This document shows, piece by piece, positions 12,447 to 30,209 of a stretch of DNA of 43,924 bases. The DNA is from Fibrobacter sp. GTDB lineage: Bacteria > Fibrobacterota > Fibrobacteria > Fibrobacterales > Fibrobacteraceae. The stretch spans positions 1-43,924 of the forward strand of contig JAKSIC010000025.1 in assembly GCA_024399015.1 (NCBI GenBank). Direction: 5' to 3'. Numbering within the stretch: the stretch's first letter is position 1; the number at the start of each line of letters is the position of its first letter. The notes below the pieces were generated by a model. It saw nothing but the letters and a program-made list of their open reading frames with translations. It had not been told where the DNA came from and did no database searches. The translations under genes were made by a program, and so were the position numbers.

Positions 12447-12514
12447 GTTCCAAAATCCTCCGTGCAACCAAAGATATAAAACCTTCGTGGGGCTTTTTTA
12501 GTTATCTTTGGGAT

Positions 12515-12715: not shown

Positions 12716-12734
12716 CGCACATGGATTTTAAAAC

Positions 12735-12769
12735 AGAAGGACCCCGGCTTTCGCCGAGGCCCTTTTTTG
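12735..12769 (+). terminator. Terminator, first of two identical 35-base copies
   Basis: GGACCCCGGC, loop TTTC, GCCGAGGCCC, then six T. The stem has ten positions with two mismatches. The whole 35-base block, including flanks, recurs exactly at 15738-15772, so the three-gene cassette 12853-15718 is bracketed by direct repeats. Confidence 0.85.
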
Positions 12770-12852
12770 TGGGAAAAATCACAAAAAGAGATTTTTTTTG
12801 ATGATAAGGTAAAATTTTAGTATACATTAATTGGAAAATAAGAGGGAGTTTT

Positions 12853-14684: not shown

Positions 14685-14698
14685 AAAAGGAGAAAATT

Positions 14699-15718
14699 AT
14701 GCCTATTCCGTTTATTGTGGGTGCCGTTGGTGCCATCGCTGCCGCTGCTGGTGTTGGTGCCGGAGTCAAAGGTGCTGTTAAGATGAAGGATGCCAATGAT
14801 ACCATCAAGAGCGCGCAAAGTCGAAATGAACGAAACGTTGCAAAGTACAATAACGCTGAAAAGAATATGAAGGAATCGATGGATGGTCTTGGCAAGTTGG
14901 AACTTGAAGTCATGAAAAGCTTTAAGGATTTTGCTGACTTGTATGCACAAATCAAGAACAGACCGAAATTTAAAGACATTGATATAGGTAATGTGAAATT
15001 TTCCTTTAATCCGGAAGCGATGAAGGATGCATCTGTTGGTGCCTCTGTTTTGTTGGGTGGTCTTGGTGGCGCTGCTGCAGGTACTGCCGGCGGAATTGCT
15101 GCTGGTGGTGCGGTAACGGCTGCGGTGGCGGCTTTTGGTACAACGTCTGCAGGAACCTTGATTGGATCCCTTTCCGGTGCCGCGGCAACTAATGCCACAT
15201 TGGCTTTCCTTGGTGGTGGAAGCCTTGCTGCTGGTGGCGGCGGCATGGCTCTTGGTTCCGCTGTTCTGGGTGGAGCAACTTTAGGCGTGGGACTTCTTGC
15301 AGCCGGAATTATCTTCAATATTACGGGGTCTAAGCTTGAAGAAAAGGCGGACGAAATTGAGCGCAAGGTAGATAAGGCTGAAAAGCAAATCAACAAGCTG
15401 TGCGCCCATTTTGACAAACTCAGTGCTGTTGCCGGAAGATATACCCGTTCTATCCGATGTGTATATGAAAAGTACACAAGCTACTTGTATAGAATTGAAA
15501 ACATTGTTGAAGTGCAGGAACGTTCTGACTGGAATGAATTTACGGATGATGAAAAACTTGCGGTACAAAATCTTGTTCGTCTTGCAACCGTTCTGTATAA
15601 CATGTGTAAGGTTAAACTGGTGAACAAGTCCGAAAAGGAGGGAGAACCGGGTTCAGTCAATACTTCTGAATGTGAAACAGAGATGAGCCATGCTGATAGC
15701 TTATTGAATGAGATGTAA
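14699..15718 (+). CDS. Glycine-zipper membrane protein with coiled coils
   Basis: This is a 339-residue protein with AAGGAG before ATG 14699. A hydrophobic Ala/Gly N-terminus (about 4-25) is followed by a coiled coil (about 30-90), a long Gly/Ala-rich hydrophobic block (about 108-205, many GxxxG repeats), and a second helical region containing KLEEKADEIERKVDKAEKQI. Such glycine zippers insert into membranes in toxins and in proteins partnered with dynamin-like GTPases. The C-terminus is acidic. It is the last gene of the cassette, 19 bases before the second 35-base terminator. The name and activity are unknown. Confidence 0.7.
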   Translation: MPIPFIVGAVGAIAAAAGVGAGVKGAVKMKDANDTIKSAQSRNERNVAKYNNAEKNMKESMDGLGKLELEVMKSFKDFADLYAQIKNRPKFKDIDIGNVKFSFNPEAMKDASVGASVLLGGLGGAAAGTAGGIAAGGAVTAAVAAFGTTSAGTLIGSLSGAAATNATLAFLGGGSLAAGGGGMALGSAVLGGATLGVGLLAAGIIFNITGSKLEEKADEIERKVDKAEKQINKLCAHFDKLSAVAGRYTRSIRCVYEKYTSYLYRIENIVEVQERSDWNEFTDDEKLAVQNLVRLATVLYNMCKVKLVNKSEKEGEPGSVNTSECETEMSHADSLLNEM

Positions 15719-15737
15719 CATCCGTTGAACAATTTAA

Positions 15738-15772
15738 AGAAGGACCCCGGCTTTCGCCGAGGCCCTTTTTTG
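15738..15772 (+). terminator. Terminator, second identical 35-base copy
   Basis: This is the same block as 12735-12769, 20 bases after the stop of the glycine-zipper gene. It ends eight bases before direct repeat copy 2. Confidence 0.85.
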
Positions 15773-15835
15773 ATTGAGAGATGACCTCGGAGTTAAGCTC
15801 GTTAAGCCATTATAACTGGCAATCTGAAGGATTAG

Positions 15836-15958
15836 TTGTCTATTGAAAATCCTTGGTATGATCCCTCCCGAAGAAATAATGATTCTGATGATAAAACAAG
15901 GAATACAATATTTCTTATACTTCAAGATTTCTTCTCAAAAAATGTTGGCATAGTCTAA
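15836..15958 (+). CDS. Micro-ORF in the direct repeat, copy 2
   Basis: A 40-residue frame from TTG 15836 with GAAGGA upstream. It is identical to the copy at 10811 for its first 40 residues but stops at TAA 15956-15958 because the sequence diverges there. The role is unknown. Confidence 0.3.
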   Translation: MSIENPWYDPSRRNNDSDDKTRNTIFLILQDFFSKNVGIV

Positions 15959-16031
15959 CATACCTTATGTTTCCCAAGGATTTTGTAAACAAGGACTTTG
16001 TGATGCAAGTGATGTCGAACTACATCAAGGA

Positions 16032-16059
16032 ATCATTTTGTTGACATTAACAAAATGGT
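16032..16059 (+). promoter_or_regulatory. 28-base hairpin leader before XRE gene, copy 2
   Basis: Identical to 10965-10992 and at the same distance before the XRE start. Confidence 0.6.
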
Positions 16060-16093
16060 TCGTGTTAGAAACGGTTTAAATAATGGAGGCTAT

Positions 16094-16381
16094 ATGGCTA
16101 AAGAAAGTGATGAAAATTTTGAAATCAAGAACGAAGAGTCTATTTCCTGGGAAGAAACGGATTTATTCAAAAATCGCTTTGCAGAATCTACTCCCGGCGA
16201 AATGATTTTTGCGAGCAGAGATATGCGAGGATGGTCCCAGGCGGCTTTGGCCGAAAAACTTGGCAAGTCGTCGCATTATGTTTCTGATCTAGAGAACGGC
16301 AGACGCTCTGTATCCAGAAAAATGGCTGTAATGCTCGGCGATGTTTTCGGCTGCGATCCCGCCTTGTTTTTTGACTTTTAG
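16094..16381 (+). CDS. XRE-family transcription regulator, copy 2
   Basis: The 95 residues are identical to those of 11027-11314, with the same GGAGG site. Two identical regulators with identical dyads will cross-regulate both loci. This copy faces the operon 16397-18668 rather than a single orphan gene, so it is likely the ancestral setting. Confidence 0.88.
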   Translation: MAKESDENFEIKNEESISWEETDLFKNRFAESTPGEMIFASRDMRGWSQAALAEKLGKSSHYVSDLENGRRSVSRKMAVMLGDVFGCDPALFFDF

Positions 16382-16396
16382 CTCAGTTCATTTATT

Positions 16397-16726
16397 CTAT
16401 CCGGCAAGCTGGTCGATGAGGTTCTTGACCTGCTTGGCCATCGCTTCGGCGGTTTTCTTGTAATCCTTGTTCACCTTGGCCAGGTAGGCGTCGGTTTTGA
16501 TCTTGAAGTTCTCGTTATGCTCGCCCTGTAGCACTGTCGGCCAGGATCCGATCTTCAGGGATTCCGCAAACAGTTCCTTCATTACCTTAAGCTTCTTTCT
16601 GGGCGGGTACGCTTTCTGCGCGTAGTAGGCCACGCATATCCCTGCAAGGTGCTGCATAACGTAACTTAGGTCAAGTTCGTTGGGCAACAAAGCGTAGTTT
16701 CTTAGTGAACTGATAAGTGCTTGCAT
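16397..16726 (-). CDS. Unknown helical protein, copy 2
   Basis: This is a 109-residue basic helical protein. AAAAAGG lies directly before ATG 16726. It differs from copy 1 mainly near residues 11-21. It begins seven bases after the stop of the 59-residue membrane gene, so it is the third gene of the operon led by 16920-18668. No family is recognised. Confidence 0.65.
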   Translation of the reverse strand: MQALISSLRNYALLPNELDLSYVMQHLAGICVAYYAQKAYPPRKKLKVMKELFAESLKIGSWPTVLQGEHNENFKIKTDAYLAKVNKDYKKTAEAMAKQVKNLIDQLAG

Positions 16727-16733
16727 ACCTTTT

Positions 16734-16913
16734 TTATTGCTTAACGTCCTTTTTCATTTCCCGGATGGCTTTGCGGCCACGACGGACTGCTAGCCAGTGG
16801 GCAACCTTGTCGTGTGTAATCCAAATGGGGGCGATAATGAGATTCGCCAGAAGCTCCAGGATTACACAGGGCGCAAGGAGGATATAGCGCAGGATTTCCT
16901 TGAGCGCGTTCAT
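16734..16913 (-). CDS. Small single-pass membrane protein
   Basis: This 59-residue frame starts at ATG 16913, six bases after the stop of the coiled-coil gene, and ends at TAA 16734. The sequence begins MNALKEILRYILLAPCVILE, continues with a hydrophobic helix (LLANLIIAPIWI) and ends in a basic tail (RRGRKAIREMKKDVKQ). One or two membrane passes are predicted. No clear ribosome site, so translational coupling is assumed. The function is unknown. Confidence 0.55.
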   Translation of the reverse strand: MNALKEILRYILLAPCVILELLANLIIAPIWITHDKVAHWLAVRRGRKAIREMKKDVKQ

Positions 16914-16919
16914 GGCTAG

Positions 16920-18668
16920 CTACCAGAGCAGGGCCTTGACGGTGTCCTTTCCTCCGTTGATACTGCCTCTCTTGTCGCTGGGGGTGCCGGACTCTGTGCC
17001 CCTGTACCTATCGGTTTTGTCCTTGATGAAGAATATTTTGTAATGTCTTTCTCTTTCGTTTTTTCTTATGCCTAGGCCAAAGGGTTTCAGGCTTTTCTTT
17101 CCTGGATCAGAGTTAAGTTCGGCGGTCTCGGCGTAACCTTCCAGTGTAGCCTTGTCCTTTTTCACTTTATTGAACATGGCCATGGCTTCTTTGTTTGAAT
17201 TGATTATGGCCTCAAAAACGTCGAAGGATCGCTGGGTATGGCTGTTTTTGGGGCGTGGGAGTAGCTTGGGAGCTTCTTGCAATAGGTTGATGACCTGGCA
17301 GAGGGTTTCGTTCTCGAACATCTCGTCTTCGGGCATAACCAATGGAATGTAATTGCCACCTTGTTTTTTGATTGTTTTAATGCTGTTTTGCAAGGTTTCA
17401 ATGGTGGCTTCGCATGCTACGAGCTTTTCGGAGAGATCGTGCTTTTCTTCTTCCGCTTCATCGACCATTCCCACGTATGTATCACATTCCACCTTGAGGT
17501 TGTCGTGCTTGCTTTTCCAAGAATCGGTGTCGGCCTTGGCATCGGCCAGCTCCTGGTTGAGCCTTGCAATATCCTCGGCCTGCTTTGCGGAGGTGTTGAC
17601 CAGTTCGTCGTACTTTGCCTTCAGTTCCTTGTAGTCTTCGATGAGCTTCTTCTGCTCGTTTTTACTTTCGGCAGTCTTGCTCGGCTTGGCGAGAATGTCC
17701 TTGATGCGGCCCATGATGGCCGTGAACTCGCTGTCGCTGAAGACCTTCTTGTTTTCTTCGTTCACCTTCTGCTGGTGGACGAGGGCGTTGCGCTTTTCCT
17801 GCTCCGCCAGGGCCTTCTTCTGCTTGTTCTGTACGTCTACGAAGTCGTCCCAGCTGAAGTCGAACTTTGCGGTAAGGCTGTTCTTGAGGATGGACAGGTA
17901 GATTTTCTGTACAAAGTCCTCGGGGCTTGCGCCGTTGCGGTTGATAATGCTTACGGGCTGGCCGGGGTTGCAAATGCCGATGGCCCCTTTTTTCGGGAAA
18001 GGAGTGTTGACGTCGATCCTGATTCGGTCGGAGAGGGTGTTGTCCTTTTCGGCGTACACATGGGCCACGCCGTAAAGTGTCTTGGCAAGTTCCTTGGGCT
18101 TGATGGCGTGGGTACGTTCTGCACAGCTCAGGTACACAACGGGGAGCTTGTTGTTCTTTTTGCCGAGGAAAATGTTCTTGGCGTCGTTTACGTCGGTGGG
18201 CTGCAGGATGTGCGCGTCCTGGTTGAATTCGATGTCGCCGTCGCCGTCCTGGAACTTGATCAGGTAATCGATGATGCGCGGCTTGGAGAACTTGGGGATC
18301 TTCGCCGCCCTTTCCAGCTTGCAGTCCAGGGAGACGTAGCAGAGCAGATGGTCGCTGGTTCTTTTGAGCGCCACTCGTGTACGCCAAAGGCATCCCATGT
18401 TCAGGGTGCCATGGACAAAGCAGATGTACTGCTCGCCATTGAATACAAGGGAATCGTACTGGAGAAAGTCCCCGGCGAACTCGAACTTCTTGGATTCGTT
18501 ATCCTTGATGTCGATTTTCGGGGTGAGCTTGCGCAGAAGCCTCTCGTAGTTTTTCTTGCCGGTCCTTTTGTTGACGCTTCCGTTCAGCCAAGGGTAGATA
18601 CATTTGCTGTAAACGTCATTCCACGGAAGGTCGTTTCTCAAGTTGATCGAAGTCTTTAAAAGCAGCAT
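16920..18668 (-). CDS. Large coiled-coil protein of unknown function
   Basis: This is a 582-residue protein. ATG 18668 has GGAG seven bases upstream; GTG 18674 is too close to it. Residues 1-280 form a globular domain with features such as YICFVHGTLNMGCLWRTRVA and LPVVYLSCAERTHAI then ELAKTLYGVAHVYAEKD. Residues about 285-420 are a long coiled coil with heptad Leu/Glu/Lys pattern, and the C-terminus is a basic region ending in GGKDTVKALLW. There is no signal peptide or ATPase motif. It leads an operon with a small membrane protein and the duplicated helical gene. It looks like an accessory, possibly defence-related, sensor or scaffold, but no function can be assigned. Confidence 0.7.
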   Translation of the reverse strand: MLLLKTSINLRNDLPWNDVYSKCIYPWLNGSVNKRTGKKNYERLLRKLTPKIDIKDNESKKFEFAGDFLQYDSLVFNGEQYICFVHGTLNMGCLWRTRVALKRTSDHLLCYVSLDCKLERAAKIPKFSKPRIIDYLIKFQDGDGDIEFNQDAHILQPTDVNDAKNIFLGKKNNKLPVVYLSCAERTHAIKPKELAKTLYGVAHVYAEKDNTLSDRIRIDVNTPFPKKGAIGICNPGQPVSIINRNGASPEDFVQKIYLSILKNSLTAKFDFSWDDFVDVQNKQKKALAEQEKRNALVHQQKVNEENKKVFSDSEFTAIMGRIKDILAKPSKTAESKNEQKKLIEDYKELKAKYDELVNTSAKQAEDIARLNQELADAKADTDSWKSKHDNLKVECDTYVGMVDEAEEEKHDLSEKLVACEATIETLQNSIKTIKKQGGNYIPLVMPEDEMFENETLCQVINLLQEAPKLLPRPKNSHTQRSFDVFEAIINSNKEAMAMFNKVKKDKATLEGYAETAELNSDPGKKSLKPFGLGIRKNERERHYKIFFIKDKTDRYRGTESGTPSDKRGSINGGKDTVKALLW

Positions 18669-18711
18669 TCCCACACTCCATTACTTTACCTCACAAATAT
18701 AAAATAGAGTT

Positions 18712-18783
18712 GGAGCCGCTGCGGCAGGGATTCCATACCAGACCTATGTCAATGCCTTGCTTGATAATGCCGCTTTTGCGTAG
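18712..18783 (+). pseudogene. 3' remnant of a CopG-type antitoxin
   Basis: Only the last 23 codons remain, encoding AGIPYQTYVNALLDNAAFA and a stop, nearly the same as the C-terminus of the antitoxin at 2853-3188. No start or N-terminal part is present. It marks the right end of the accessory island and suggests that a second toxin-antitoxin pair was deleted. Confidence 0.8.
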
Positions 18784-18834
18784 TTTATTCCTTGAAATTG
18801 GTCTTTAAACGCCGTTTTTTGTATTTTTCTTTAC

Positions 18835-20295
18835 ATGAAGAAGGTGATTTTTGACCTAGACGGCACCTTGTGGGAAACCAGCGAAGGTTACGTCTATTCC
18901 TATAACAAGGCCTGCAGGCAGCTGGATATTCCGGCCGACAAGATACGGGGCAGGGAGCATGTGCTTTCGTATCTTGGCATGAAGCTTGAAGAGCTTGTGA
19001 TGACCATTCTGCCCGAGGCCCCGGACAAGATGGTGCTGGGCCAGCTGCTTTTGACCAACGTCATTGAGTACCTGCTGACGCACCCCCAGACTTTTGGCAA
19101 GGATATCCGCCAGCTGTTCGAAGGTCTTTCCAAGAAGTACGAGATTTATATCATCAGTAACTGCCCCAGGCCTTTTTTGGAGGCCTTCTATACGGTTTCC
19201 GGGGTAAAGCCTTTTATTACTGGCGATAACACCATCGAAGATTCCGACAAGTCCGAGGCTATCAAGAAGTTTACCAACGGCTATGCTGATTCCGCCTTTT
19301 TGGTGGGGGATTCCCCGGCGGATTACGGTTCCATCGAGAACCATCGCAATGTGCAGTTTGTTTATGCCGCCTACGGCTACTGCAAGAATTGCTCCACCTA
19401 CAATTATTATCTGGAAGATCTGGATTCCTTGCCGGGCATTTTGGCCGGAATGGAATCCATGGAGCGCGCCCTGAATGGTGCCCCCTACGAGGTGGTTTGC
19501 AACAAGGGTACTAGTGCCACAATCATTGACAAGGGTGATTGCTACTACTTTGGTTTTTTGAACGTGCGTAATGTTCTGGATCTGCCGGCTGTGATTGATG
19601 GTATCAAGGCCCGTTGCAAGGGTAAGGCCGTGCTTGGCCCCATCAATGGTAATTCCTGGTACACTTACCGTTTGCCCCTGAATGAATTCGATTACAAGTT
19701 GCTGCCTGATTGCCCGGGTGACGAGGCCACGTTGCAGAAGTTCCTGGACGCAGGTTTCGAGGTGGCTGAAAAGTACATTTCGACGGTGACCTCCCACAAT
19801 ATGGATAAGTGGGGCTTTTCCCAGATTCAACTGCCCGAGGGTTACGAGGCTAAGCTTGTAAAAGGCGACGAATGCTACGATTACCTGGAAGAGATTTTCC
19901 AGATTTCTAGCCGCTGTTTCGAGGGCCACCTTTTTTATGAACCCATTGACTATGATGAATTCAGGGCCATGTACGAAAGGTTCTTGCCCATGTGTTCCCC
20001 TTACCTGGTGTTGATCAGTTACCAGGGCGATGTCATTGGCTACAACTTTTTCTACCCTGATCCGGAGAACCGTTTTATGGTCCTCAAGACCACGGCCATT
20101 GAAAAGGAGCACCGCAGTCGTGCGGTTTTGCTGAAACTTATCGAGCTTACCAACAACGTTGTTTTGGAACAGGATTTCGACCAGCTTTTGATGCATTTTC
20201 AGCATACCAAGAACATTATGCTCCAGAGTTATTTCAAGGGTACGGTGGTTAAGCAGAAGGAATACGGAGTCTTGAAGTATGAGAGTGCTGAATAA
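18835..20295 (+). CDS. HAD phosphatase-acyltransferase (GNAT-like) fusion
   Basis: This is a 486-residue protein. The N-terminal HAD domain (1-210) has FDLDGTLWET (motif I, Asp7 and Asp9), IYIISNC (motif II) and FLVGDSPADYGS (motif IV). The C-terminal half (about 330-486) has a GNAT-like pattern (YLVLISYQGDVIGYNFFYPD, then MVLKTTAIEKEHRSRAVLLK). The layout recalls FkbH-type HAD-acyltransferases that prepare glyceryl units, but the substrate here is not known. It is the first gene of a five-gene operon; the next gene starts inside its last codons (17-base overlap). The AT-rich segment at 18,800-18,830 probably holds the promoter. Confidence 0.75.
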   Translation: MKKVIFDLDGTLWETSEGYVYSYNKACRQLDIPADKIRGREHVLSYLGMKLEELVMTILPEAPDKMVLGQLLLTNVIEYLLTHPQTFGKDIRQLFEGLSKKYEIYIISNCPRPFLEAFYTVSGVKPFITGDNTIEDSDKSEAIKKFTNGYADSAFLVGDSPADYGSIENHRNVQFVYAAYGYCKNCSTYNYYLEDLDSLPGILAGMESMERALNGAPYEVVCNKGTSATIIDKGDCYYFGFLNVRNVLDLPAVIDGIKARCKGKAVLGPINGNSWYTYRLPLNEFDYKLLPDCPGDEATLQKFLDAGFEVAEKYISTVTSHNMDKWGFSQIQLPEGYEAKLVKGDECYDYLEEIFQISSRCFEGHLFYEPIDYDEFRAMYERFLPMCSPYLVLISYQGDVIGYNFFYPDPENRFMVLKTTAIEKEHRSRAVLLKLIELTNNVVLEQDFDQLLMHFQHTKNIMLQSYFKGTVVKQKEYGVLKYESAE

Positions 20296-21361
20296 CCAGA
20301 CTTGCGTACGTTGCATTAACGACAAGACTGTAAGGCATATTTCCTTCGATTCCGAGGGTGTTTGCAATTTCTGCCGCGAGTACGAAAAGTATGCGGGCAA
20401 GTTGCACGATTACGAAGCCCTGGAAAAGAATTTCTTGAACCGCATTAGTAACCGCGCGGGGCATAGGTATGATGCCGCAGTAGGTTTCAGTGGCGGCAAG
20501 GATTCTGCCTTTGTTCTGTACCAGTTGGTAAAAGTCTATGGCCTTAAGGTTAAGGCTTTCACCTTGGATAACGGCTTTATGTCGCCCGAGGCAAAGGATA
20601 AGATTCGCTCCATGGTATCAAAGCTTGGGGTGGAACACGAGTTTGTTGCCTTGGACCAAACCTTGGTAAAGGAAATGTACCGCCAGATTGCGGGGAAGTT
20701 CCTTTCTCCTTGCATGTGTTGCGCCTTTATCGGCTATGCTGTGATGATCAATTACGCCTCCAAGGTAGATGCTGCGGTAATGATTCACGGCCGAAGTCCC
20801 TACCAGATGCTCCGTAACTTTAGCAACCTGGATAACGATTACTTTAAGCCCTTTGTGACCGAGGGCTTGGAAGAGGTGGCCCAGGACCCTGCGGAACTTT
20901 TGCAGGTGATTCTTTCCAAGATCGATATGTTCGTGGATAAGAATTTGGCCGCATCCATTCGTGAAAAGTTCCTGGGGGATTGTTTCGAAAAAGGTTTCCG
21001 CCCCTTTGTGGCATATTTCCTTTATCATAAGTACGACAAGGCCGAAATTTTGGAATTCCTCAAGCAGAATATGGGCTGGGTTGCCGAAAGCGAAGAGGAA
21101 CATTTCGACTGCCTTATTCATCACGGTGCCCTGTACATCAAGAATATTATTGCCCGCCGTAGCCACTTGATGCCGGAACTTTCGGTAATGATCCGCGAAG
21201 GTAAAATCAGCCGTGAACAGGCTCTGGAAATGGCCCTGGAATCGGAGCAGATTGACGAAGGCGTGGCCCGCGAGGAACTGGAAAAGTTTGGAAAGTTTGC
21301 TGGCTTGAACGCCAAATGGATGCTGACCAAGGCCAAGATTTATGGCAAACGCTGGTGGTGA
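20279..21361 (+). CDS. PP-loop ATP pyrophosphatase, sugar amidotransferase-like
   Basis: This is a 360-residue protein. An N-terminal zinc knuckle, Cys9, Cys12, Cys29 and Cys32, leads into the PP-loop FSGGKDSAF (71-76). A second cysteine set, SPCMCCAFIGYA (about 147), is where related enzymes hold a metal or iron-sulfur cluster. The pattern matches the WbpG/PseA-like N-acetyl sugar amidotransferase and thiouridylase superfamily: ATP activates a carbonyl, then ammonia or sulfur is added. No glutaminase partner lies next to it. The gene overlaps the previous one and precedes the membrane PPDK-like gene by 31 bases. The amidation or thiolation step belongs to the operon's product; which one is unknown. 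Confidence 0.78.
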   Translation: MRVLNNQTCVRCINDKTVRHISFDSEGVCNFCREYEKYAGKLHDYEALEKNFLNRISNRAGHRYDAAVGFSGGKDSAFVLYQLVKVYGLKVKAFTLDNGFMSPEAKDKIRSMVSKLGVEHEFVALDQTLVKEMYRQIAGKFLSPCMCCAFIGYAVMINYASKVDAAVMIHGRSPYQMLRNFSNLDNDYFKPFVTEGLEEVAQDPAELLQVILSKIDMFVDKNLAASIREKFLGDCFEKGFRPFVAYFLYHKYDKAEILEFLKQNMGWVAESEEEHFDCLIHHGALYIKNIIARRSHLMPELSVMIREGKISREQALEMALESEQIDEGVAREELEKFGKFAGLNAKWMLTKAKIYGKRWW

Positions 21362-21392
21362 CGCTGTTAATCCTGCGCAAAAATGAGTTTTT

Positions 21393-24278
21393 ATGTTTAA
21401 GACCATTGTTCGTAAATATGTTTTGAACCCGGTGTATGTAGTGGCAGCCTACGCATTGTTTGCGCTGTCGCTTTTATTTTATACAAATCCCTTTGAATCT
21501 CTGGACCGTTTTGTAACGCCCAGCTTGATGATTATGATTCCGCTGTACTTGGGAATGCGTTTTCTAGATGATTACAGCGATTACCAAAAGGATTTTAAGA
21601 GGGGCAAGGCTTATTTAAATCAGAATGTTTTGATTGTTTGCTGGCTGGTGAGCTGTGTTACTTTGATTGCCGTGAGTTTTGCTACGGGTCGCTGGGCTTT
21701 CGTTTTGATGGCTTTGCTGATTGTTGGCGTGTACCGCTTTAATCTGGAGTATGTCAAGCCTTTTGTAACGCCTTTGGTTTTTGCTTTGGTGCTGCTGTAC
21801 GAATACGGTTTCCATGTTTCCAATGGGTTGATTCTTGGACTCAGTTTTGTGGTGAGCATTTTGTTCGCTGTAGTGAAGGGCCGCAAGGGTTGTAAGGAAC
21901 GTGGCCATTTTGGTTGCAAGGGGGAATGTGCCGATTACGCGTTGGAACAGGTTGGCGGCAAGGCCTATAACCTTTTTAAGCTGAACATCAAGAATACTCC
22001 GGACTATTATCCCATTAAGGCGGAGTATTTGAACCCGCCTAATATGTGCGAACTGCGTCGCATTGTAGATAAGTTCTGCAAGCCGGGTAAGCTTTATGCG
22101 GTGCGCTCCTCTGCCGTTGATGAAGATTCTGCAGCCAATAGTTTTGCTGGGGTTCACGATACTTTTTTGAATGTGAAGAAGGATGAGGTTCTGGAAAAGA
22201 TCCTGGCGGTGGTTGAAAGTGCCCATAGCGATGTGGCCCTCAAGTACCGTAAAGAAAATGGTCTGGACGTTGAAAATATCCAGATTGCGGTTCTGCTCCA
22301 GGAAATGGTGGATGCGGATTTCGCCGGCGTGCTGAATACCATCAATCCGGTAACCAACAACGTTTCGGAAACGGTCATCAGTGTTACCCAAGGCCTTGGC
22401 GATAAGCTGGTGGATGGTACGGTGGACGGCTCCACTTATTATTTGGATGGCAAGAAGGTTGAAGTTAACGGCCCTGATATTTTGAACAAGAAGGTTCTGA
22501 AGGGTTTGCTGGATTTGGCCAACGAACTTCGTGTAAAGACCAATCGTTTTCAAGATTGTGAATTTGCGGTAAAGAACGACAAGGTTTACTTTTTGCAGTC
22601 CCGTGCCATTACCACCTACGATGTGGATAGCCATGGCATGACTTTGCTTATTGATAACTCCAACCTCATTGAATCTTATTACGGAATGACGTCGCCTTTG
22701 ACCCATTCCTTTGCCCACGAGATTTATGCCAAGGTTTATGCTGCCACAGGCAAGCTGCTGAATATCGACCAGAAAATTGTAGATGAATGCCAGTACGCTT
22801 TGGACCACATGCTTTATTCCTACGAAGGAAAGCTGTACTACAATTTGAATTCCTGGTACCAGGTGAATTCGGTGCTGCCTTCCAAAAGCTCCACCAGCTA
22901 CATGGAAAGCATGATGGGGGTGAAGGCAGGGAATAGTAGCCTGAAGCGTGTGAAGATGGGCCTTTGGGATATTTGCAAGGTGGCTTGCGCTTTGTTGCCC
23001 AAGTTCCGCAATATCGACAAGCTTTCGGACCAGTTTGTGGAAAACTTCAACGCCATCGTGAATCCTTATTACGGCAAGAATCTGGATCACCTTTCCATGA
23101 AGGAACTGGTTGCCCTTTACGAGGAAATCGATTCCAAGATAATCAAGGAATTCACCATTCCCATTTTGAACGATGTGGGCGTGATGATGAACTTTGGCCG
23201 CCTCAAGGACAAGGTGCAGAAATATCCCAATGCCGATGAACTGCTGGCCTTTGCGGTGAATAACGATGGCAATGTGGAAAGCGCCAAGAACGCCACCGAG
23301 TTTATCAAGATTGTGGAATTCATCAGGGCCGATGGATCGTTGCGTAAGGATTTTGAGGGGCTGAGCGACCAGGAATTGAGTGATAAGTATTTAGTTGAGG
23401 GCGCATTGGTTGGTGGGGCCGCGGCCCGTGCAGATGTGGCCAAGATGCTCAAGGATTACATTCACGATTACGGTCCCCGTGTCATTAACGAACTGAAGCT
23501 TGAAACCGTCACCATGATCGAAGAGCCCGCCCTGATTTTCGGGCTGATTCGTGAAGGTCTCAAGAATCCCCGTAGTGGCGAAACCACTGCCACTGCAAAT
23601 GTGGAAATTCCCAGGGAATTGCGTAAGCTGGCTGAAAAGGCGAAGCATTTTATCCAGAATCGTGAACGCCTCCGCCTCCGCAGAACCTACGTGTTCTCCG
23701 TTATCAGAAACATCTTCTTGAGTTGCGGTAAGAACCTGGAACGTGAAGGTAAGATTGGTTCTTATAGGGATGTGTTCTACCTGAAGAAAAATGAAATCTT
23801 CTACGGGGAAGGGGCTGATGGTGGGAATGATGCGGACCTGGATTATCGCAAGCTTGTTGCGGAACGCAAGGCTCAGGAAGGGATCGATTGCAAAAAGCCT
23901 TATTACAACCGCATCGCTTTCTTTGGCGACAAGGTGCTGCCCATTACTTTTGTAAGCCCAAAGGGTCTTACCGGCTTGCCTTCCGGCCATGGGGTGGTGA
24001 AGGGCAAGGTTTGCGTGATGGAAACCAAGGACGATACTTTTGAACCGGGCTCCATTATTGTAACAAAGCGTACCGATCCGGGTTGGATTAGCTTGTTTCC
24101 GCTGGCCTGCGGCCTGATTGTGGAACACGGAAGCATGCTTTCCCACAGCTTTGTGGTGGCCCGCGAAATGAAATTGCCCTGTATTGTAGGCGTTTCTGGA
24201 ATTACACAACTCCTGAAGACCGGAGATGTTGTAACTTTGGATGCCTCCAAGGGAGAAGTGACCATTGAAACTGTCTGA
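21393..24278 (+). CDS. UbiA-like membrane domain fused to PEP-synthase/RPH-like phosphotransferase
   Basis: The protein has 961 residues. The first ~180 form about six membrane helices with MRFLDDYSDYQKDFKRGK, close to the UbiA prenyltransferase D-x-x-D motif; the second Asp motif of UbiA is not evident. A linker (KGRKGCKERGHFGCKGEC) joins a PPDK-type ATP-grasp domain: AVRSSAVDEDSAANSFAGVH, then TQGLGDKLVDGTVDGSTYY and FLQSRAITTYD. A middle region starts with GMTSPLTHSF, as in rifampicin phosphotransferases. The C-terminal swivel domain holds the phosphohistidine, EHGSMLSHSFVVARE. The reaction is probably ATP-driven phosphorylation or pyruvyl-type activation of a membrane-bound substrate. The fusion itself is unusual. 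It overlaps the next gene by 14 bases. Confidence 0.8.
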   Translation: MFKTIVRKYVLNPVYVVAAYALFALSLLFYTNPFESLDRFVTPSLMIMIPLYLGMRFLDDYSDYQKDFKRGKAYLNQNVLIVCWLVSCVTLIAVSFATGRWAFVLMALLIVGVYRFNLEYVKPFVTPLVFALVLLYEYGFHVSNGLILGLSFVVSILFAVVKGRKGCKERGHFGCKGECADYALEQVGGKAYNLFKLNIKNTPDYYPIKAEYLNPPNMCELRRIVDKFCKPGKLYAVRSSAVDEDSAANSFAGVHDTFLNVKKDEVLEKILAVVESAHSDVALKYRKENGLDVENIQIAVLLQEMVDADFAGVLNTINPVTNNVSETVISVTQGLGDKLVDGTVDGSTYYLDGKKVEVNGPDILNKKVLKGLLDLANELRVKTNRFQDCEFAVKNDKVYFLQSRAITTYDVDSHGMTLLIDNSNLIESYYGMTSPLTHSFAHEIYAKVYAATGKLLNIDQKIVDECQYALDHMLYSYEGKLYYNLNSWYQVNSVLPSKSSTSYMESMMGVKAGNSSLKRVKMGLWDICKVACALLPKFRNIDKLSDQFVENFNAIVNPYYGKNLDHLSMKELVALYEEIDSKIIKEFTIPILNDVGVMMNFGRLKDKVQKYPNADELLAFAVNNDGNVESAKNATEFIKIVEFIRADGSLRKDFEGLSDQELSDKYLVEGALVGGAAARADVAKMLKDYIHDYGPRVINELKLETVTMIEEPALIFGLIREGLKNPRSGETTATANVEIPRELRKLAEKAKHFIQNRERLRLRRTYVFSVIRNIFLSCGKNLEREGKIGSYRDVFYLKKNEIFYGEGADGGNDADLDYRKLVAERKAQEGIDCKKPYYNRIAFFGDKVLPITFVSPKGLTGLPSGHGVVKGKVCVMETKDDTFEPGSIIVTKRTDPGWISLFPLACGLIVEHGSMLSHSFVVAREMKLPCIVGVSGITQLLKTGDVVTLDASKGEVTIETV

Positions 24279-25335
24279 TTACTATAAAGAAGAAAACTAC
24301 ATCCATTACAGCAATTGCCATGAGGACTTTGCGCTGCTGTGGAAGTATGTAACGCCGGAAATGGGCGAGGTGCTTTCGGTGGCTTCGGGCTTGGACAATT
24401 CCTTGGGCTTTTTGGCTCAGGATAATTTGAATGTTCACGCCTTTGACTTTAACCCTTCCCAGGTTTACTTGGGGCAGCTTAAGATTGAAGCTATCCGTAC
24501 TTTTGAATGGGAAGAAATGCTCCAGTTCCTGGGAATTGAGGCTGGGGAGGCGACCTCTGGTGCAGAAAAACGCGTGGCCCTTTACCAAAGGATTGCGAAC
24601 AATCTCCCGGCCGATGCAAAGCAGTATTTTGATGAACACCTTTTCTTGATCGAAGAAGGCCTGGTAAATTGCGGACGCTTTGAACAGTATTTCCATATTT
24701 TCCGCAAGAAGGTTTTCCCTCTGACCAGTGGCGACAAGAACATCCGTAAGTTCGCCATGGCCGAAACCATCGAGGAACAGCGAAAGATTTACGACAAGAA
24801 AATCAATACCATCCGTTTTAAGCTGATGTTCAAGGTTTTCTTCTCCAAGACGCTGATGGGTGCCTTGGGCCGCGACAAGGCTTTTTTCAAGTACAGCAAG
24901 GAAAGCCTGCCGGAACTGCTCAAGACTCGCGTAGATACTGGTTTTTATAATTGCCTGAACCGCAAGAATCCTTATTACGGTTATGTTCTGACCAATAGCT
25001 ATCCGGAGCTGCCCTTCTATTTGCAGAAGGAAAACTTCTACAAGATCAAGAAGAATATTGGCAATATTTCTGTGGAGCGCAAGACATTTGATGAAATGCT
25101 GACCCAGAAATACGACTTCATGAATCTTTCGGATATTTTTGAATATATGGACGTTTCGGTTATGGAAAGCTACGCCAAACGCATTCAGGATCATCTGAAT
25201 GAAAAGGGGATTGTAGCTTTCTGGAATATGATGAATGTCCGTCAGTTTGGTGGTTGGCAGCGAAAGAATGGCAAGCAGGATTGGCTGGAAGATAGGGCCT
25301 TTTTCTACCGAGACTTTTTGGTGTATGAAAAATAA
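24265..25335 (+). CDS. BtaA-like S-adenosylmethionine 3-amino-3-carboxypropyl transferase (DUF3419)
   Basis: This is a 356-residue protein. VLSVASGLDNSLGFLAQ with FDFNPSQVYLGQLKIEAI is the SAM-binding signature of DUF3419/BtaA, which moves the aminocarboxypropyl group of SAM onto diacylglycerol in betaine-lipid synthesis. A C-terminal MNLSDIFEYMD and IVAFWNMMNVRQF also fit. The BtaB N-methyltransferase that normally follows is absent, so the product would be a non-methylated homoserine-type ether or another acceptor is used. The start lies within the preceding gene (14-base overlap), and the next gene starts within its end (11-base overlap). Confidence 0.82.
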   Translation: MKLSDYYKEENYIHYSNCHEDFALLWKYVTPEMGEVLSVASGLDNSLGFLAQDNLNVHAFDFNPSQVYLGQLKIEAIRTFEWEEMLQFLGIEAGEATSGAEKRVALYQRIANNLPADAKQYFDEHLFLIEEGLVNCGRFEQYFHIFRKKVFPLTSGDKNIRKFAMAETIEEQRKIYDKKINTIRFKLMFKVFFSKTLMGALGRDKAFFKYSKESLPELLKTRVDTGFYNCLNRKNPYYGYVLTNSYPELPFYLQKENFYKIKKNIGNISVERKTFDEMLTQKYDFMNLSDIFEYMDVSVMESYAKRIQDHLNEKGIVAFWNMMNVRQFGGWQRKNGKQDWLEDRAFFYRDFLVYEK

Positions 25336-26683
25336 TTTCCTGAAAGATTTCGTTAGCCGCGCCCAGGGCAATTCCAAGACTGCCTTTATTTACAAGGAAT
25401 GCTTTGGTTATCGTAAGGCAACCTTTGCTGAATTCCTGGCCGATGTCTACAAGATGTGCGGGTATTTAAAATCCCAGCTGAAGGGCGACAATGTGATGAT
25501 TTTTTCGTACCCTTACAGCTACTACTTTTATGTAGGGATTTTTGCCGCGGTCTTTTTGGGAAAGAACATTGTCATTGTAGATTCCTTCAGCGATAAAAAG
25601 AAAACCCGTTCCATGATGGAACAGGCCGAAGTGACAGACGTTCTGACAGATGGTTTGACCCGCTGGCTTACGTTCCTGTTGCCGGTGAAAAAGCCTGTGG
25701 TGAACTTGACCAAGTTCCGTTCCTATGGAGCTGAAGATTGCGCCGCTGCCGAAACGCCAAGGGAAAACGCCTCGATCATTACGTTCACCTCTGGCACTAC
25801 GGGGATGCCCAAGCTGATCCGCCGTAACCTGGATTTCCTGGAATCTCAAATCCAGCTTATTAGGGATAACGCCGATATTCGGGAAGACGATGTGACCTAT
25901 GGCTTGTTGCCTATGTATACCCTTCTGTCGGTGCTGATGAATAACACTTGCCTGGTATCTAGGGATATCAAGGCTTGCTCTCAGTTCGGGGCTACAATGC
26001 TTTTGGCTCCCATCAAGAAGGTGCTTCAAGTCAAAACGCCCTTGCAAACTATTCAGCGAGCTTTTTTGGGCGGAGCCATCCTCTACAAAAAGGAAACGGA
26101 AACTATTCTTTCGAAGTTGCCTGCCGCAGATATTACCTATGTGTATGGCGCATCGGAAGGTGCCGTAATCTACAAGACGAATCTCCGCAGTTATAACGAG
26201 AATCCTTTTACTTTTGATACAAAGTCGAAGGGAATCGACGTGACGATTCTGAATCCCGATGCCAATGGGGTAGGGGAAATCCAGATTTCCGGCGAAACAG
26301 TCATTGGGGCTGCCGCTGGTGTTACCGAAGATCGCGGGGTACACAATACAGGCGACTTCGGGAAAATCGTGGATGGCAAGCTGGTTCTGCTTGGCCGCAA
26401 AAAATACAGCTGCAGCGATGTTTCCTTCTATAACTATCAGTACGACGAGTTATTGCGCAAGCGTAACCCGAAAATGACGGCCGGGTTCAGCTTTTACTAC
26501 GAAGGTAAAATCCATGTGGCTTATTGCGGGGCCCTTGATGATGCACCCCTGAATAATTTGCCGACGCTGGAAGTTGCTTTCCACCGTTATGCAAAGTTGC
26601 CCTACGATTTAAAGCACAAGACAAAACTGGACTACGGAAAGGTGATCACCACCAGTCTTCATCCTCGTCGTCTACAGGGGTAG
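25325..26683 (+). CDS. AMP-forming acyl/aryl ligase
   Basis: This is a 452-residue protein. ATG 25325 is chosen because it sits in the coupling position with the BtaA-like stop; the longer frame runs through that gene. The ANL core motif TFTSGTTGMPKLIRRN is present, followed by YVYGASEGAVIY and the hinge region NTGDFGKIVDGKLVLLGRKK. The catalytic C-terminal lysine may be in HKTKLDYGKV. At 452 residues it is slightly shorter than standard acyl-CoA synthetases. It would activate a carboxylic acid as adenylate for the operon's product. The last 38 bases overlap the end of the convergent gene 26646-27521. Confidence 0.82.
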   Translation: MKNNFLKDFVSRAQGNSKTAFIYKECFGYRKATFAEFLADVYKMCGYLKSQLKGDNVMIFSYPYSYYFYVGIFAAVFLGKNIVIVDSFSDKKKTRSMMEQAEVTDVLTDGLTRWLTFLLPVKKPVVNLTKFRSYGAEDCAAAETPRENASIITFTSGTTGMPKLIRRNLDFLESQIQLIRDNADIREDDVTYGLLPMYTLLSVLMNNTCLVSRDIKACSQFGATMLLAPIKKVLQVKTPLQTIQRAFLGGAILYKKETETILSKLPAADITYVYGASEGAVIYKTNLRSYNENPFTFDTKSKGIDVTILNPDANGVGEIQISGETVIGAAAGVTEDRGVHNTGDFGKIVDGKLVLLGRKKYSCSDVSFYNYQYDELLRKRNPKMTAGFSFYYEGKIHVAYCGALDDAPLNNLPTLEVAFHRYAKLPYDLKHKTKLDYGKVITTSLHPRRLQG

Positions 26684-27521
26684 GGGGCGGGGGTGGCGCA
26701 ACAGGCTTTCGTGCCACCTTACGTTTTTTGGCGGCTTTGGCTCTGGCCATGGCCGCCTGCTTTTTTAACAGGGCTTCGTTTTCTGCCATGTTCACCGGAT
26801 CAATTACGGCGTTGATGGGTAAAGTTTGGGCCTGCTGTGTAATTTGCTTATCGGGAACGTTGTTCAACTTTGTAGCGATGGCCGCAATGCAGAACATAAT
26901 GAAAAGGGTGGCGCACACGTACAGCACAAAACTCTGGCGGTGCTTTACCTGATTCTGTGCTTTTTTCTTTTTCGGGGTGAAGAGGTTCATGAATTCCATG
27001 ACCACATCCAGGAACAAGCTTTGGTGATTGGCGTTCACCTCGCGGCACCGCCTGTTCCATACAAAGCTATCCATGAACAGTGATGCAACAACGGCCATGG
27101 GTATAATGAGGGTGGCGTTGGAATACTTGAAGAACATGGCGCAGAACATGACTGCGATGGAAATCTTGAGGCAGTTCAGGAAGGTGACGCAGTTCCTGTA
27201 GAAATCAGGAAGGGCGGTAGCCTTTGCCTGGGCGGGCAATATTTCCGATTCCCTGCGGATGCCCCATTCCATGGTGATGAGGGTGACGCTCAGAAAACCA
27301 AGGGCCGCAATGACCAGCAGCGCCACCATATAGAGGATTTCCATGGAAAAGCAGTAGCCGGCGTTATTCACGTTGCAAAGGGCTTCTGTTTTCTGGAATA
27401 AAATCTTGCCGGTGGAATCTACCGTGTGAACGAACACGTAGCCGAATACAATGAAAATGCCAAAAAGTATGGCAAATAGTTTTAACAAAAGGGTAGAACC
27501 CTTTTCCTCCTTAATAAACAC
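26646..27521 (-). CDS. Unknown polytopic membrane protein
   Basis: This is a 291-residue protein starting at GTG 27521 with AGGAGG nine bases upstream. About five membrane helices (around 12-32, 60-82, 112-132, 133-152, 197-218) are followed by an Ala/Lys-rich tail and the ending APPPPPTPVDDEDEDWW. A segment with two Cys (CNVNNAGYC) lies outside the membrane between helices one and two. No family is recognised. It converges with and overlaps the AMP ligase gene by 38 bases, which is unusual and suggests that one of the two C-termini grew by stop loss. Confidence 0.7.
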   Translation of the reverse strand: MFIKEEKGSTLLLKLFAILFGIFIVFGYVFVHTVDSTGKILFQKTEALCNVNNAGYCFSMEILYMVALLVIAALGFLSVTLITMEWGIRRESEILPAQAKATALPDFYRNCVTFLNCLKISIAVMFCAMFFKYSNATLIIPMAVVASLFMDSFVWNRRCREVNANHQSLFLDVVMEFMNLFTPKKKKAQNQVKHRQSFVLYVCATLFIMFCIAAIATKLNNVPDKQITQQAQTLPINAVIDPVNMAENEALLKKQAAMARAKAAKKRKVARKPVAPPPPPTPVDDEDEDWW

Positions 27522-27659
27522 TCCGCAATCCTCCTAAAGAAAGCGGCTTAAGTATAAGTTATTTTCGGGGGTCTTGGGGCTAAAATGCTAGATGTAATAA
27601 AAATAACGGAAAACTCGTATGACGATGTATTACGTTGTGTATAAAAGTAGCCTTGCGGC

Positions 27660-28217
27660 CTAGAAGAACATCTTCACGCCGATGCCGATGAGGATGATGC
27701 CGGCGATGATTTCGGGGATTTTTGTCTTGAACTGCTTGGCGGCGCGGCGGCCGATTTCGTAACCCAGCACCCCCATCACGAAACTTGCGATGGCGATGGC
27801 GGAGGTGGCGGTAATCATGTCGGCGTTAATGAAGGCAAAGGAAATACCTACGGCGAAGGCATCGATGCTTGTTGCCACGGACATGAGCAAAATATTTGCG
27901 ATGGTCAGGTTCTTGGCGCTGGTTTCGGCGGCTTCATCGTCGCCACCACGGACTGCGCCCCAGATCATGCGTCCGCCCAGAATGCACAGGATGGCGCAGG
28001 CGATGGGGGTACCTATGGAATTGAACCATTTTTCCGCAAAGTTGCCCAGGAAATAGCCGATAAGGGTCATGCCGCCCTGGAAAACGCCGAAGCTTACGGC
28101 CTGGATCATGGCGCGGCTATATTTGATGCCGGACTTGCTTAAACCCGTGGCGATGGAGACTGCGAAACAGTCCATGGCTTCAACAATTGCGATAACGATG
28201 ATTTCAATGATTCCCAT
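27660..28217 (-). CDS. mntP: MntP manganese efflux pump
   Basis: This is a 185-residue six-helix protein, the normal length for MntP. ATG 28217 is taken; longer frames cross the divergent promoter. Conserved acidic motifs EAMDCFAVSIATGL (helix 1) and SVATSIDAFAVGISFAF (helix 4) hold the metal-binding Asp residues, and ILGGRMIW follows the usual pattern. It exports Mn(II). The 40-base divergent gap to 28258 must hold both promoters. No manganese riboswitch-like structure is obvious there. Confidence 0.93.
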   Translation of the reverse strand: MGIIEIIVIAIVEAMDCFAVSIATGLSKSGIKYSRAMIQAVSFGVFQGGMTLIGYFLGNFAEKWFNSIGTPIACAILCILGGRMIWGAVRGGDDEAAETSAKNLTIANILLMSVATSIDAFAVGISFAFINADMITATSAIAIASFVMGVLGYEIGRRAAKQFKTKIPEIIAGIILIGIGVKMFF

Positions 28218-28257
28218 GGGCCTTAAGATAGAAAAAAGAGGTATATTTCGTTTTACA

Positions 28258-28626
28258 ATGGGTGCTCGTTTTAAGATTCTCATAGGTGTATTCGCGCTGG
28301 TGACAGGGTTGTTCGCCCTGGATTTTGCCTTGCCCGAAGTTACCCCGGAGTTGAAGGGCAACGCCCAGGAATTTTTTGCCAATGAGTGCAAGGGCTGCCA
28401 CCGCTGGGCCCGAAAGTTCGCTGCTCCACCCATGAAGGAAAATGTGGAACAGTATGTGAACCGCCCGGAAGAGATGGTACAGTACCTGATGAAGCCTACG
28501 CCGAAACATCCGGACGTTTGGCCTGCCATGGACATTACGCCCCTTTCGGAGACTCAGGCCAAGATGATGACGGCCTGGCTCCTTTATATCCTCAAGAATC
28601 CTGAAGATCCGGGGAGGCCCAAGTGA
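28258..28626 (+). CDS. Mono-heme cytochrome c
   Basis: This is a 122-residue exported protein with an N-terminal hydrophobic segment (about 5-22), a single heme site CKGCH (about 46-50) and a possible Met ligand in KMMTAWLL or WPAMD. It is comparable to ActE-type electron acceptors. Its stop overlaps the GTG start of the next gene by four bases. It is the first gene of the respiratory module running to 32472 and sits in the periplasm or on the membrane, passing electrons on from the multi-heme subunit. Confidence 0.85.
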   Translation: MGARFKILIGVFALVTGLFALDFALPEVTPELKGNAQEFFANECKGCHRWARKFAAPPMKENVEQYVNRPEEMVQYLMKPTPKHPDVWPAMDITPLSETQAKMMTAWLLYILKNPEDPGRPK

Positions 28627-29276
28627 AGGTCCTCGTAGCGGTTCTTTGTTTGTTCTGCGCTTTCTTGACTGCGGATTTTATCTGGAGCCAGGGGGAGACC
28701 CCTGTGCGAACTGGGGTTTCTGGGTTTGAGGAACGCGCTGGGGACGGGGTTCGCGCCGGTATGGAAAGTCGCGGATTAGAAAGTCGCGGAGTGCCGTTTG
28801 ACCACGCCCTTCACGGGGATTCCATTGGCTTGGATTGTGCCGCCTGCCATACGGGATCGAAATCTGGGGCTAGGGCCTATATGCCTGCCAAGAGCGATTG
28901 CATGGATTGCCACCGTTTGCCTTTGACCGAAAAGCCGGGAATTGAAAAACTGGATTCCGCCTTGGCTGATGCTCCGGAACATCCGTGGAAGGCTGTGTCC
29001 CAGTTGCCGGACCATGTGGTGTTTCACCATGGTGTGCATAGTGCGGCTGGGGTGACTTGTGCTGATTGCCATGGGGGACGCGGGGCTGTTGCTCGGGCGG
29101 TTGATGATCGTGAGGCTATTGCTCGGGACGCAAGGAATGTGCCAAATTACGAGCGCAATGTTTATGGCGGCCTGAAGATTGATATGAAGACTTGCCTTCA
29201 GTGCCACAAGGGCGAAACTTTCAAGGAACGTAACTTTAAGCCCGCGGCTACTTACTGTGCCGCTTGCCACAGGTAG
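28623..29276 (+). CDS. Pentaheme cytochrome c (class III / ActA-like)
   Basis: This is a 217-residue protein from GTG 28623 with a signal or anchor helix (4-22). Five C-x-x-C-H sites, CAACH, CMDCH, CADCH, CLQCH and a terminal CAACH, plus extra His residues (DHALH, FHHGVH) fit cytochrome c7/c3-type domains with bis-His hemes. Alternative complex III has a pentaheme ActA in the same place. An insertion rich in Arg/Ala (about 152-172) separates hemes three and four. It would receive electrons from the Fe-S subunit. Confidence 0.88.
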   Translation: MKVLVAVLCLFCAFLTADFIWSQGETPVRTGVSGFEERAGDGVRAGMESRGLESRGVPFDHALHGDSIGLDCAACHTGSKSGARAYMPAKSDCMDCHRLPLTEKPGIEKLDSALADAPEHPWKAVSQLPDHVVFHHGVHSAAGVTCADCHGGRGAVARAVDDREAIARDARNVPNYERNVYGGLKIDMKTCLQCHKGETFKERNFKPAATYCAACHR

Positions 29277-29282
29277 GGGAGT

Positions 29283-30209
29283 ATGGATCGTCGTGATTTT
29301 ATAAAATCCTGTTCCCTGATGGCTTTGGTTGGCTTGTTGCAGGGTTGCAAGAAGGGCCAGCTTGGAGACGGCGCTGGTACCGGTTCCGGTGAACGTTTGT
29401 CTGCTTTTATGAAGCGTTGCGAAGATGAAGTGCGTTTGGCGGTTTCCGAGGCTCATGGTCGTATGGACCTGGTGAAGGTTCCTATGCCTAAAGAAATGAA
29501 AGGTTCCTTGGCTGGATTTTCTGCGGGTTCCGCCCGCGAAGCCAGCGTGAATCGTTTTGGCATGGCCATCGACTTGGATTTGTGCAACGGCTGTGGTAAG
29601 TGCATTCTTGCCTGCAATACGGAAAACAACGTAGCCCTGGTGACCGATGAAGAGGCTGCCCGAGGCCGCTTTATGCACTGGATTGATATGCGCGGTGGTG
29701 CGCCATTCATGTGCGCACATTGCGGTGACGCGCCCTGCGAAAAGGTTTGCCCCACGGGAGCGGCCAATCATACGCCTGATGGCATAAGCGCCATGATGTA
29801 CAAGCGTTGTACCGGGTCTCGTTTCTGCGGGGCCAACTGCCCGGCGAAAGCCCGCAAATTTAATTTCAACGACGCGCAGGAACTGGGCCTGGTGCGTAAG
29901 CTGAATTACGATGTTCCTTTGCGCGAGAAAGGCGTTATGGAGAAGTGCAGCCTGTGTCTGCACCGCCTGCAGAATGACCGCATGCGTTTCAAGACAGAGG
30001 CTGCCATTGCAGGTAGCAATGCGGAATGGCGCGGCCGTGGCGTAAAGACAGCCTGTGCCGAGGCCTGCCCCCGTAACGCCATCGTGTTCGGGAACTGGCT
30101 CGATCCGGAATCGCCCCTGGTGAAGGCCGCGCAAGGTAGGCAACTGTATGCGCCTCGTGAACTTGCGGAACATGATCCTGCTGTTGTATTTATGATGGGG
30201 AAGCGCTGA
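29283..30209 (+). CDS. Ferredoxin-like four-cluster Fe-S subunit
   Basis: This is a 308-residue protein. It starts MDRRDFIKSCSLM, a twin-arginine signal, and has a lipobox-like LLQGC, so it is exported folded and probably anchored. Four cysteine groups are present: CNGCGKCILAC, CAHCGDAPCEKVC, CTGSRFCGANC and CSLC with CAEAC, the pattern of NrfC/HybA/ActB C-terminal-type subunits. There is no molybdopterin subunit beside it. It links the NrfD-type membrane subunit to the cytochromes. The stop overlaps the next start (TGATG). Confidence 0.9.
   Translation: MDRRDFIKSCSLMALVGLLQGCKKGQLGDGAGTGSGERLSAFMKRCEDEVRLAVSEAHGRMDLVKVPMPKEMKGSLAGFSAGSAREASVNRFGMAIDLDLCNGCGKCILACNTENNVALVTDEEAARGRFMHWIDMRGGAPFMCAHCGDAPCEKVCPTGAANHTPDGISAMMYKRCTGSRFCGANCPAKARKFNFNDAQELGLVRKLNYDVPLREKGVMEKCSLCLHRLQNDRMRFKTEAAIAGSNAEWRGRGVKTACAEACPRNAIVFGNWLDPESPLVKAAQGRQLYAPRELAEHDPAVVFMMGKR

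Follow-up and report, generated by a model that had tools for sequence, protein, structure and literature searches.

Several described systems resemble parts of the five-gene operon analysed here, which occupies positions 18835-26683 of a 43,924-nucleotide stretch of Fibrobacter sp. DNA (assembly GCA_024399015.1, contig JAKSIC010000025.1; this whole stretch is called the window). With the BtaA/BtaB system of the betaine lipid DGTS the operon shares a protein of the BtaA/DUF3419 family, gene 4, but this protein falls into a divergent subfamily, comes without BtaB, and is partnered by dikinase, GNAT, AMP ligase, UbiA, and PP-loop or VTE5-like genes. Gene 3 shares with rifampin phosphotransferase (RPH) and PigC/RedH the ATP-binding and phospho-His domains and the absence of a PEP/pyruvate domain, with 5hv1 and 5fbs as best structural matches; it differs in being joined to a membrane half-UbiA and in lying within a lipid-type cluster. 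The full UbiA proteins of sister clusters (RxxDExKDxxxD) resemble the UbiA prenyltransferases (DGGGP synthase, EboC, chlorophyll synthase), and their closest solved structure is DGGGP synthase 6m31, whereas the window domain retains the first Asp-rich motif, lacks the second, and has roughly half of the helices. Gene 2 is similar to WbuX/PseA in its PP-loop, its zinc-ribbon-like Cys pairs and a full-length profile match, but it scores under the family cut-off, and the five genes include neither HisF/HisH-like ammonia partners nor sugar genes. In the synthesis of ornithine and glycine lipids, a GNAT-fold enzyme (OlsB/GlsB) N-acylates the amino-acid head group, which is a functional analogy to the cluster; here, by contrast, a tandem GNAT is combined with an AMP ligase and the amino-acid part would be derived from S-adenosylmethionine (SAM). 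Bacterial UbiA/DGGGPS-like genes are also part of the archaeal-lipid gene set of the FCB group (Villanueva et al., PMC7852524), but GGGP synthase does not generally accompany the BtaA-type cluster. The UbiA and HMG-CoA reductase (HMGR) neighbourhoods of the lipocone paper (PMC12419801) differ from this cluster as well.

On balance, we lean towards the view that the operon is a compact, laterally acquired version of a widespread cluster that makes a membrane aminolipid. In the best reading of the enzyme families, the product would carry an aminocarboxypropyl (homoserine-type) group and would not be a betaine lipid. We favour this reading because the genes co-occur conservatively, sister clusters contain lipid enzymes, and their UbiA is closest to DGGGP synthase; because a membrane domain is fused to the dikinase and the tandem GNAT is like LPG synthase, FemX and MprF; and because hosts with HMGR carry IspG without a mevalonate-diphosphate decarboxylase, while PP-loop and VTE5-like genes exclude each other along a single supported branch. 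Each enzyme belongs to a known superfamily; a lipid of a new class is conceivable as the product. Full-text searches restricted to open-access PMC papers gave no description of the gene set, and no Pfam or NCBIfam model names it, in agreement with the first-pass annotation of the window, which called the pathway likely undescribed.

Conservation and two forms of the cluster

Six aligned BtaA-like proteins served as the query for a scan of 84,980 species genomes, which confirmed at least 540 relatives. The best 80 of these loci represent at least 15 named phyla, and the neighbours of 79 loci were counted. Dikinase and AMP ligase genes were found at 73 loci each and GNAT genes at 70, followed by VTE5-like (42), UbiA (41), PP-loop (26) and HMGR (17) genes; several loci without an expected neighbour are contig ends. 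The cluster genes are mostly adjacent and overlapping. The first-pass annotation had proposed that the five genes cooperate in a lipid- or membrane-linked pathway and had made this depend on finding the same neighbourhood in other genomes. The neighbourhood does recur, and the proposal is supported by the return of the same partners across phyla and by the lipid genes of sister clusters.

The cluster has two forms. One contains a full UbiA and a CdsA/VTE5-superfamily protein, often with HMGR, whereas the other, to which the window belongs, contains a half-UbiA and a PP-loop enzyme. None of the 79 loci had both a PP-loop and a VTE5-like gene, and in the BtaA tree the two labels are divided by one branch (support 100/98). 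This tree, which has a midpoint root only, suggests that the PP-loop group arose within the VTE5-type diversity.

The best matches (L047-L060) contain HAD-GNAT, PP-loop, membrane-dikinase, BtaA and AMP ligase genes in the window order where the contig extends, in Treponema, Bacillales, Anaeroplasma, Mollicutes and Clostridia. Gene order together with comparable overlaps was found again in Treponema, Bacillales, Anaeroplasma and Clostridia. Chance adjacency of the five genes was ruled out, since the arrangement is conserved across phyla. In a few top loci (L058, L060) the membrane domain is encoded by a separate gene. The next ring of loci, in Oscillospiraceae, Saccharibacteria and Catonella, has a HAD-less GNAT, a stand-alone membrane protein of some 166 aa and two AMP ligases, usually with an APH/choline-kinase-like gene just upstream. 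This gene directly precedes the GNAT gene in deeper PP-loop clusters (L099 3915-5003 and over a dozen others); in the window branch the GNAT instead bears an N-terminal HAD phosphatase domain. The remaining loci combine full UbiA, dikinase, BtaA, a VTE5/CdsA-like protein, GNAT and AMP ligase, a set also present on the Roseinatronobacter plasmid NZ_CP121116.1.

The VTE5-like protein matches CTP_transf_1 in five of 18 members, weakly (best 8e-6). From its conserved positions (ExxRKxxH, D, K, G and ExxxxxGxDNxxxP) it may be a kinase and not a cytidylyltransferase. No solved structure resembling its profile by sequence was found.

Clusters with BtaA-like and dikinase genes are also present in Saccharibacteria (L061, L065, L086, L116). 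Saccharibacteria make few lipids themselves, and their clusters therefore hint at a remodelling of scavenged lipids or prenols.

Lipid genes and HMG-CoA reductase in sister clusters

Lipid-related genes surround several other versions of the cluster. In Sphingobacterium, genes for HMGR, a CDP-alcohol phosphotransferase and a CdsA-like protein lie ahead of UbiA. A cluster in the congeneric genome G151 (L043, 4072-15617) encodes CarS-like, CDP-alcohol phosphotransferase, phosphatidylserine decarboxylase, UbiA, GNAT and AMP ligase proteins and two rifampin-phosphotransferase-like dikinases, without BtaA. The L038 cluster, also without BtaA, contains YegS/DAG kinase, HMGR and AurF, and a cluster in Melainabacteria lies next to an MFS-acyltransferase-AMP ligase fusion. 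Aas-like genes are likewise found among the lipid genes neighbouring other versions. BtaA and the phosphatidylserine decarboxylase route may thus represent alternative head-group modules on a common core.

The 15 tested hosts in which HMGR lies within or next to the cluster all have IspG, and in none of them did mevalonate-diphosphate decarboxylase score above the cut-off. HMGR therefore probably serves the cluster product in these hosts. Isoprenoid supply was rejected as its role, the hosts using the methylerythritol phosphate (MEP) pathway. In the HMGR of L034 the Glu, Lys, Asp and His residues, which we take to have the catalytic roles, can be read in the sequence. At L117 (4612-7362) HMGR is fused to an APH/choline-kinase-like domain beside UbiA, BtaA-like and GNAT genes. 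No HMGR was found in the window genome.

Enzymes of the operon

The five genes follow each other with overlaps of 17, 14 and 11 bases and one gap of 31; coordinates and spacings of the earlier annotation were confirmed from the sequence. The mechanical reading frame of gene 5 begins at 25235, and the ATG at 25325 yields the last of these overlaps. Motif inspection across homologues showed the catalytic motifs of the operon enzymes to be intact. Promoter and terminator scans of the sequence gave sites no more numerous than in shuffled sequence.

Gene 4 matches PF11899 (DUF3419/BtaA; 1.2e-49) over model positions 9-384 of 385 and is thus full length. By family homology it is predicted to be a transferase of the SAM 3-amino-3-carboxypropyl type, from a divergent BtaA subfamily. 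It is 71% identical to the Treponema protein of L047, and lies far in the tree from Shinella_H2, a DUF3419 relative from an alphaproteobacterium that lacks these neighbours. The Pfam search found no BtaB or methyltransferase domain among the five genes, so that the original call of an aminocarboxypropyl transferase without BtaB stands. No solved structure resembling the BtaA-like profile by sequence was found. Within the same phylum, a further genome has a much more distant BtaA-like protein close to an AMP ligase (L046 8621-10267), a different DUF3419 context.

Gene 3 encodes a half-UbiA membrane domain (residues 1-165) and a rifampin-phosphotransferase-like dikinase (about 185-961). The dikinase part has PF01326 and PF00391 only, without the PEP/pyruvate-binding C-terminal domain, and its best match by both sequence and fold is rifampin phosphotransferase. 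The phospho-His is residue 918, and its motif is present in 68 of 71 cluster dikinases. Gene 3 scores 183 with the RPH equivalog model (cut-off 999) and is also matched by the prodigiosin ligase PigC/RedH models; the lipid context argues against a role in rifampin resistance. Structure prediction, which had been suggested for the fusion, placed the dikinase half with RPH in a model of only moderate confidence (pLDDT 71). In the N-terminal domain RxxDDxxDxxxD is the sole invariant set in 16 homologues. Its profile aligns with full cluster UbiA proteins (hhalign probability 96.9, E 1.5e-10), which upholds the UbiA relationship noted earlier; the domain is nevertheless a truncated UbiA by its sequence, ending near residue 165 before the second Asp-rich motif.

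Gene 2 contains an N-terminal CxxC...CxxC ribbon, an SGGKDS loop, C145xxC148 and C278, all invariant in 17 homologues. The N-acetyl sugar amidotransferase WbuX is its nearest named family (TIGR03573, 4.7e-41), although the score of 141 bits is under the curated cut-off of 203, and it matches PDB 8wex (9e-10). The earlier label of an amidotransferase is therefore right about the nearest family and too narrow about the reaction, thiolation being equally possible: the Cys arrangement could fit an Fe-S thiolase-type enzyme or a WbuX-like amidotransferase.

Gene 1 combines a HAD type IA phosphatase domain (residues 1-205) with a tandem-GNAT acyl/aminoacyl-transferase-like domain (about 215-486). 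HAD_2 matches at 3e-10; the GNAT-like part is weak by sequence and clear by fold. In the AlphaFold model (pLDDT 87) the fold neighbours of the GNAT part include tandem GNATs, ORF14, MAB_4324, LPG synthase DUF2156, FemX and MprF, and the HAD half reaches Z of about 21 to phosphoglycolate phosphatases. The HAD set DxD, Ser, Lys and GDxxxDY is conserved across 11 homologues. An FkbH-type HAD-acyltransferase, as first suggested, was rejected: the HAD domain is of the phosphoglycolate-phosphatase-like type IA, no carrier protein is encoded, and the HAD-IIIC model gives E 0.043 over 21 residues, which does not place the protein in subclass IIIC.

Gene 5 is a member of PF00501 (1.8e-20), an AMP-forming acyl/aryl ligase nearest to PRK09274 (OleC-like) in NCBIfam.

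Proposed pathway and alternative explanations

The enzyme families suggest the following scheme. Gene 4 would transfer the 3-amino-3-carboxypropyl group of SAM to the hydroxyl of a lipid acceptor and form a homoserine-type ether head group. Anchored in the membrane through the half-UbiA, the dikinase may phosphorylate a lipid- or prenyl-type alcohol by a relay from ATP through His to the substrate, by analogy with rifampin phosphotransferase; the phospho-His motif is present, and the substrate is our proposal. The HAD domain could subsequently strip a phosphate. A carboxylic acid activated by the AMP ligase would be joined to the amino group by the tandem GNAT. The PP-loop enzyme would use ATP to activate a carboxyl or amide and form an amide or thioamide, potentially standing in for the CdsA/VTE5-like protein found in the alternative form of the cluster.

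More tentatively, and at somewhat less than even confidence, we propose a new class of bacterial lipids in at least 15 phyla, with a head group derived from aminocarboxypropyl and probably N-acylated, on a backbone that UbiA and an RPH-like enzyme would make, moving among gut bacteria; the window form would be a variant amidated or thiolated by the PP-loop enzyme. The constant-core pathway extends to Sphingobacterium, Dyadobacter, Leptotrichia, Catonella and Roseinatronobacter, all of them in culture, and even to host-dependent Saccharibacteria. It would account for the orphan HMG-CoA reductase of MEP-route bacteria, give DUF3419 proteins a role beyond making betaine lipids, and indicate a lipid common to rumen and gut microbes via lateral transfer.

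Some observations weigh against the aminolipid. The lipid-gene neighbours belong to sister clusters and none to the window operon, and some of the clearest (L043, L038) lack BtaA. Prenyl transfer by the half-UbiA is doubtful because the second Asp-rich motif is missing. RPH/PigC-type enzymes, moreover, also act in soluble small-molecule pathways, and gene 4 occurs in none of 36 other genomes of the genus, a patchiness that suits a specialised metabolite equally well. We accordingly considered a soluble siderophore-, antibiotic- or signal-like product, for which a PigC/RedH-like dikinase would act in condensation, the AMP ligase and GNAT would form an amide, gene 4 would add an aminocarboxypropyl arm and the PP-loop enzyme would amidate or thiolate. 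The PigC/RedH matches of gene 3, an island that moves laterally and is found in one of many congeners, and an MMPL transporter near a few clusters are consistent with it. Most versions, however, have a membrane half-UbiA or UbiA, sister clusters contain lipid enzymes, and the window operon has no carrier protein, condensation enzyme or dedicated exporter, so that we consider a soluble metabolite rather unlikely.

An archaeal-type isoprenoid ether lipid, with UbiA as DGGGP synthase and the other genes adding a head group, is improbable. It would agree with the best solved UbiA match, with the CarS-like gene of the G151 cluster and with the ability of the FCB group to carry archaeal lipid genes (PMC7852524), but the window has only a half-UbiA, and the GGGP synthase family is present in just six of 20 genomes tested, 19 of which have the BtaA-type cluster. 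The pathway was rejected on this lack of generality; the window genome itself has one family member.

We give even less credence to a Rhodobacter-like route to the common betaine lipid DGTS, or to its precursor DGHS, in which the neighbouring genes would be incidental. The full-length DUF3419/BtaA protein would allow it, but BtaB is missing from the operon, for which reason simple DGTS synthesis was rejected, the distance of gene 4 from Shinella_H2 also speaks against it, and the neighbours are conserved across phyla and hence not incidental. Least probable of all is the amidation of a lipid-carried surface sugar by a WbuX-like PP-loop enzyme, since the relationship to WbuX and the prenyl-binding-like membrane domain stand against an operon without glycosyltransferase or sugar-nucleotide genes and a major sister clade without the PP-loop gene.

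Horizontal acquisition of the operon

The operon was acquired by horizontal transfer within an island of 10.9 kb (Table 1). In the congeneric genome G127 (L139) the sequences matching window positions 11759-15788 (99%) and 26731-29077 (86%) are parted by about 150 bp, and the island is absent from the matching site; both joints were read by eye in this comparison. Absence from G127, the lack of gene 4 in the other congeners and its place in the BtaA tree, within a fully supported group of otherwise Treponema proteins, together establish the acquisition, as does the closeness of its relatives in gut Treponema (71% for BtaA). Its donor and its direction are matters of inference.

The right end of the island lies inside gene 5, the final 11 codons and stop of which are host DNA. 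Homologues terminate in ...LDYGKVIEKIKK, whereas the window protein has ...LDYGKVI and then TTSLHPRRLQG, encoded by the host flank.

Table 1. Island, operon genes and accompanying features in the window.
Feature	Position	Strand	Remarks
Gene 1, HAD and tandem GNAT fusion	18835..20295	+	Pfam HAD_2, AlphaFold model, Foldseek
Gene 2, PP-loop ATPase	20279..21361	+	overlaps gene 1 by 17 bases; NCBIfam TIGR03573, PDB 8wex
Gene 3, half-UbiA/dikinase fusion	21393..24278	+	31-base gap after gene 2; Pfam PPDK_N, PEP-utilizers
Gene 4, BtaA/DUF3419	24265..25335	+	TTG start; overlaps gene 3 by 14 bases; PF11899
Gene 5, AMP-forming ligase	25325..26683	+	ATG at 25325; overlaps gene 4 by 11 bases; PF00501
Horizontally acquired island, 10.9 kb	15781..26647		carries the operon, a helix-turn-helix (HTH) gene, a short minus-strand open reading frame and the 584-aa minus-strand gene
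Small HTH-like gene, island left end	16055..16381	+	module by self-comparison; HTH assigned by eye from sequence
584-aa gene, divergent from operon	16920..18674	-	coiled-coil-like middle

Self-comparison of the window revealed a 0.95-kb module in two copies (10755-11660 and 15780-16727, 94%), in which an inverted repeat precedes the small HTH-like gene; on its left side the island starts with the second copy. G127 also holds a partial copy of the module. The 584-aa gene had no match in the Pfam search. Downstream of the island, an operon for multihaem cytochrome c and ferredoxin (28069-32472, plus strand) is kept in congeners.

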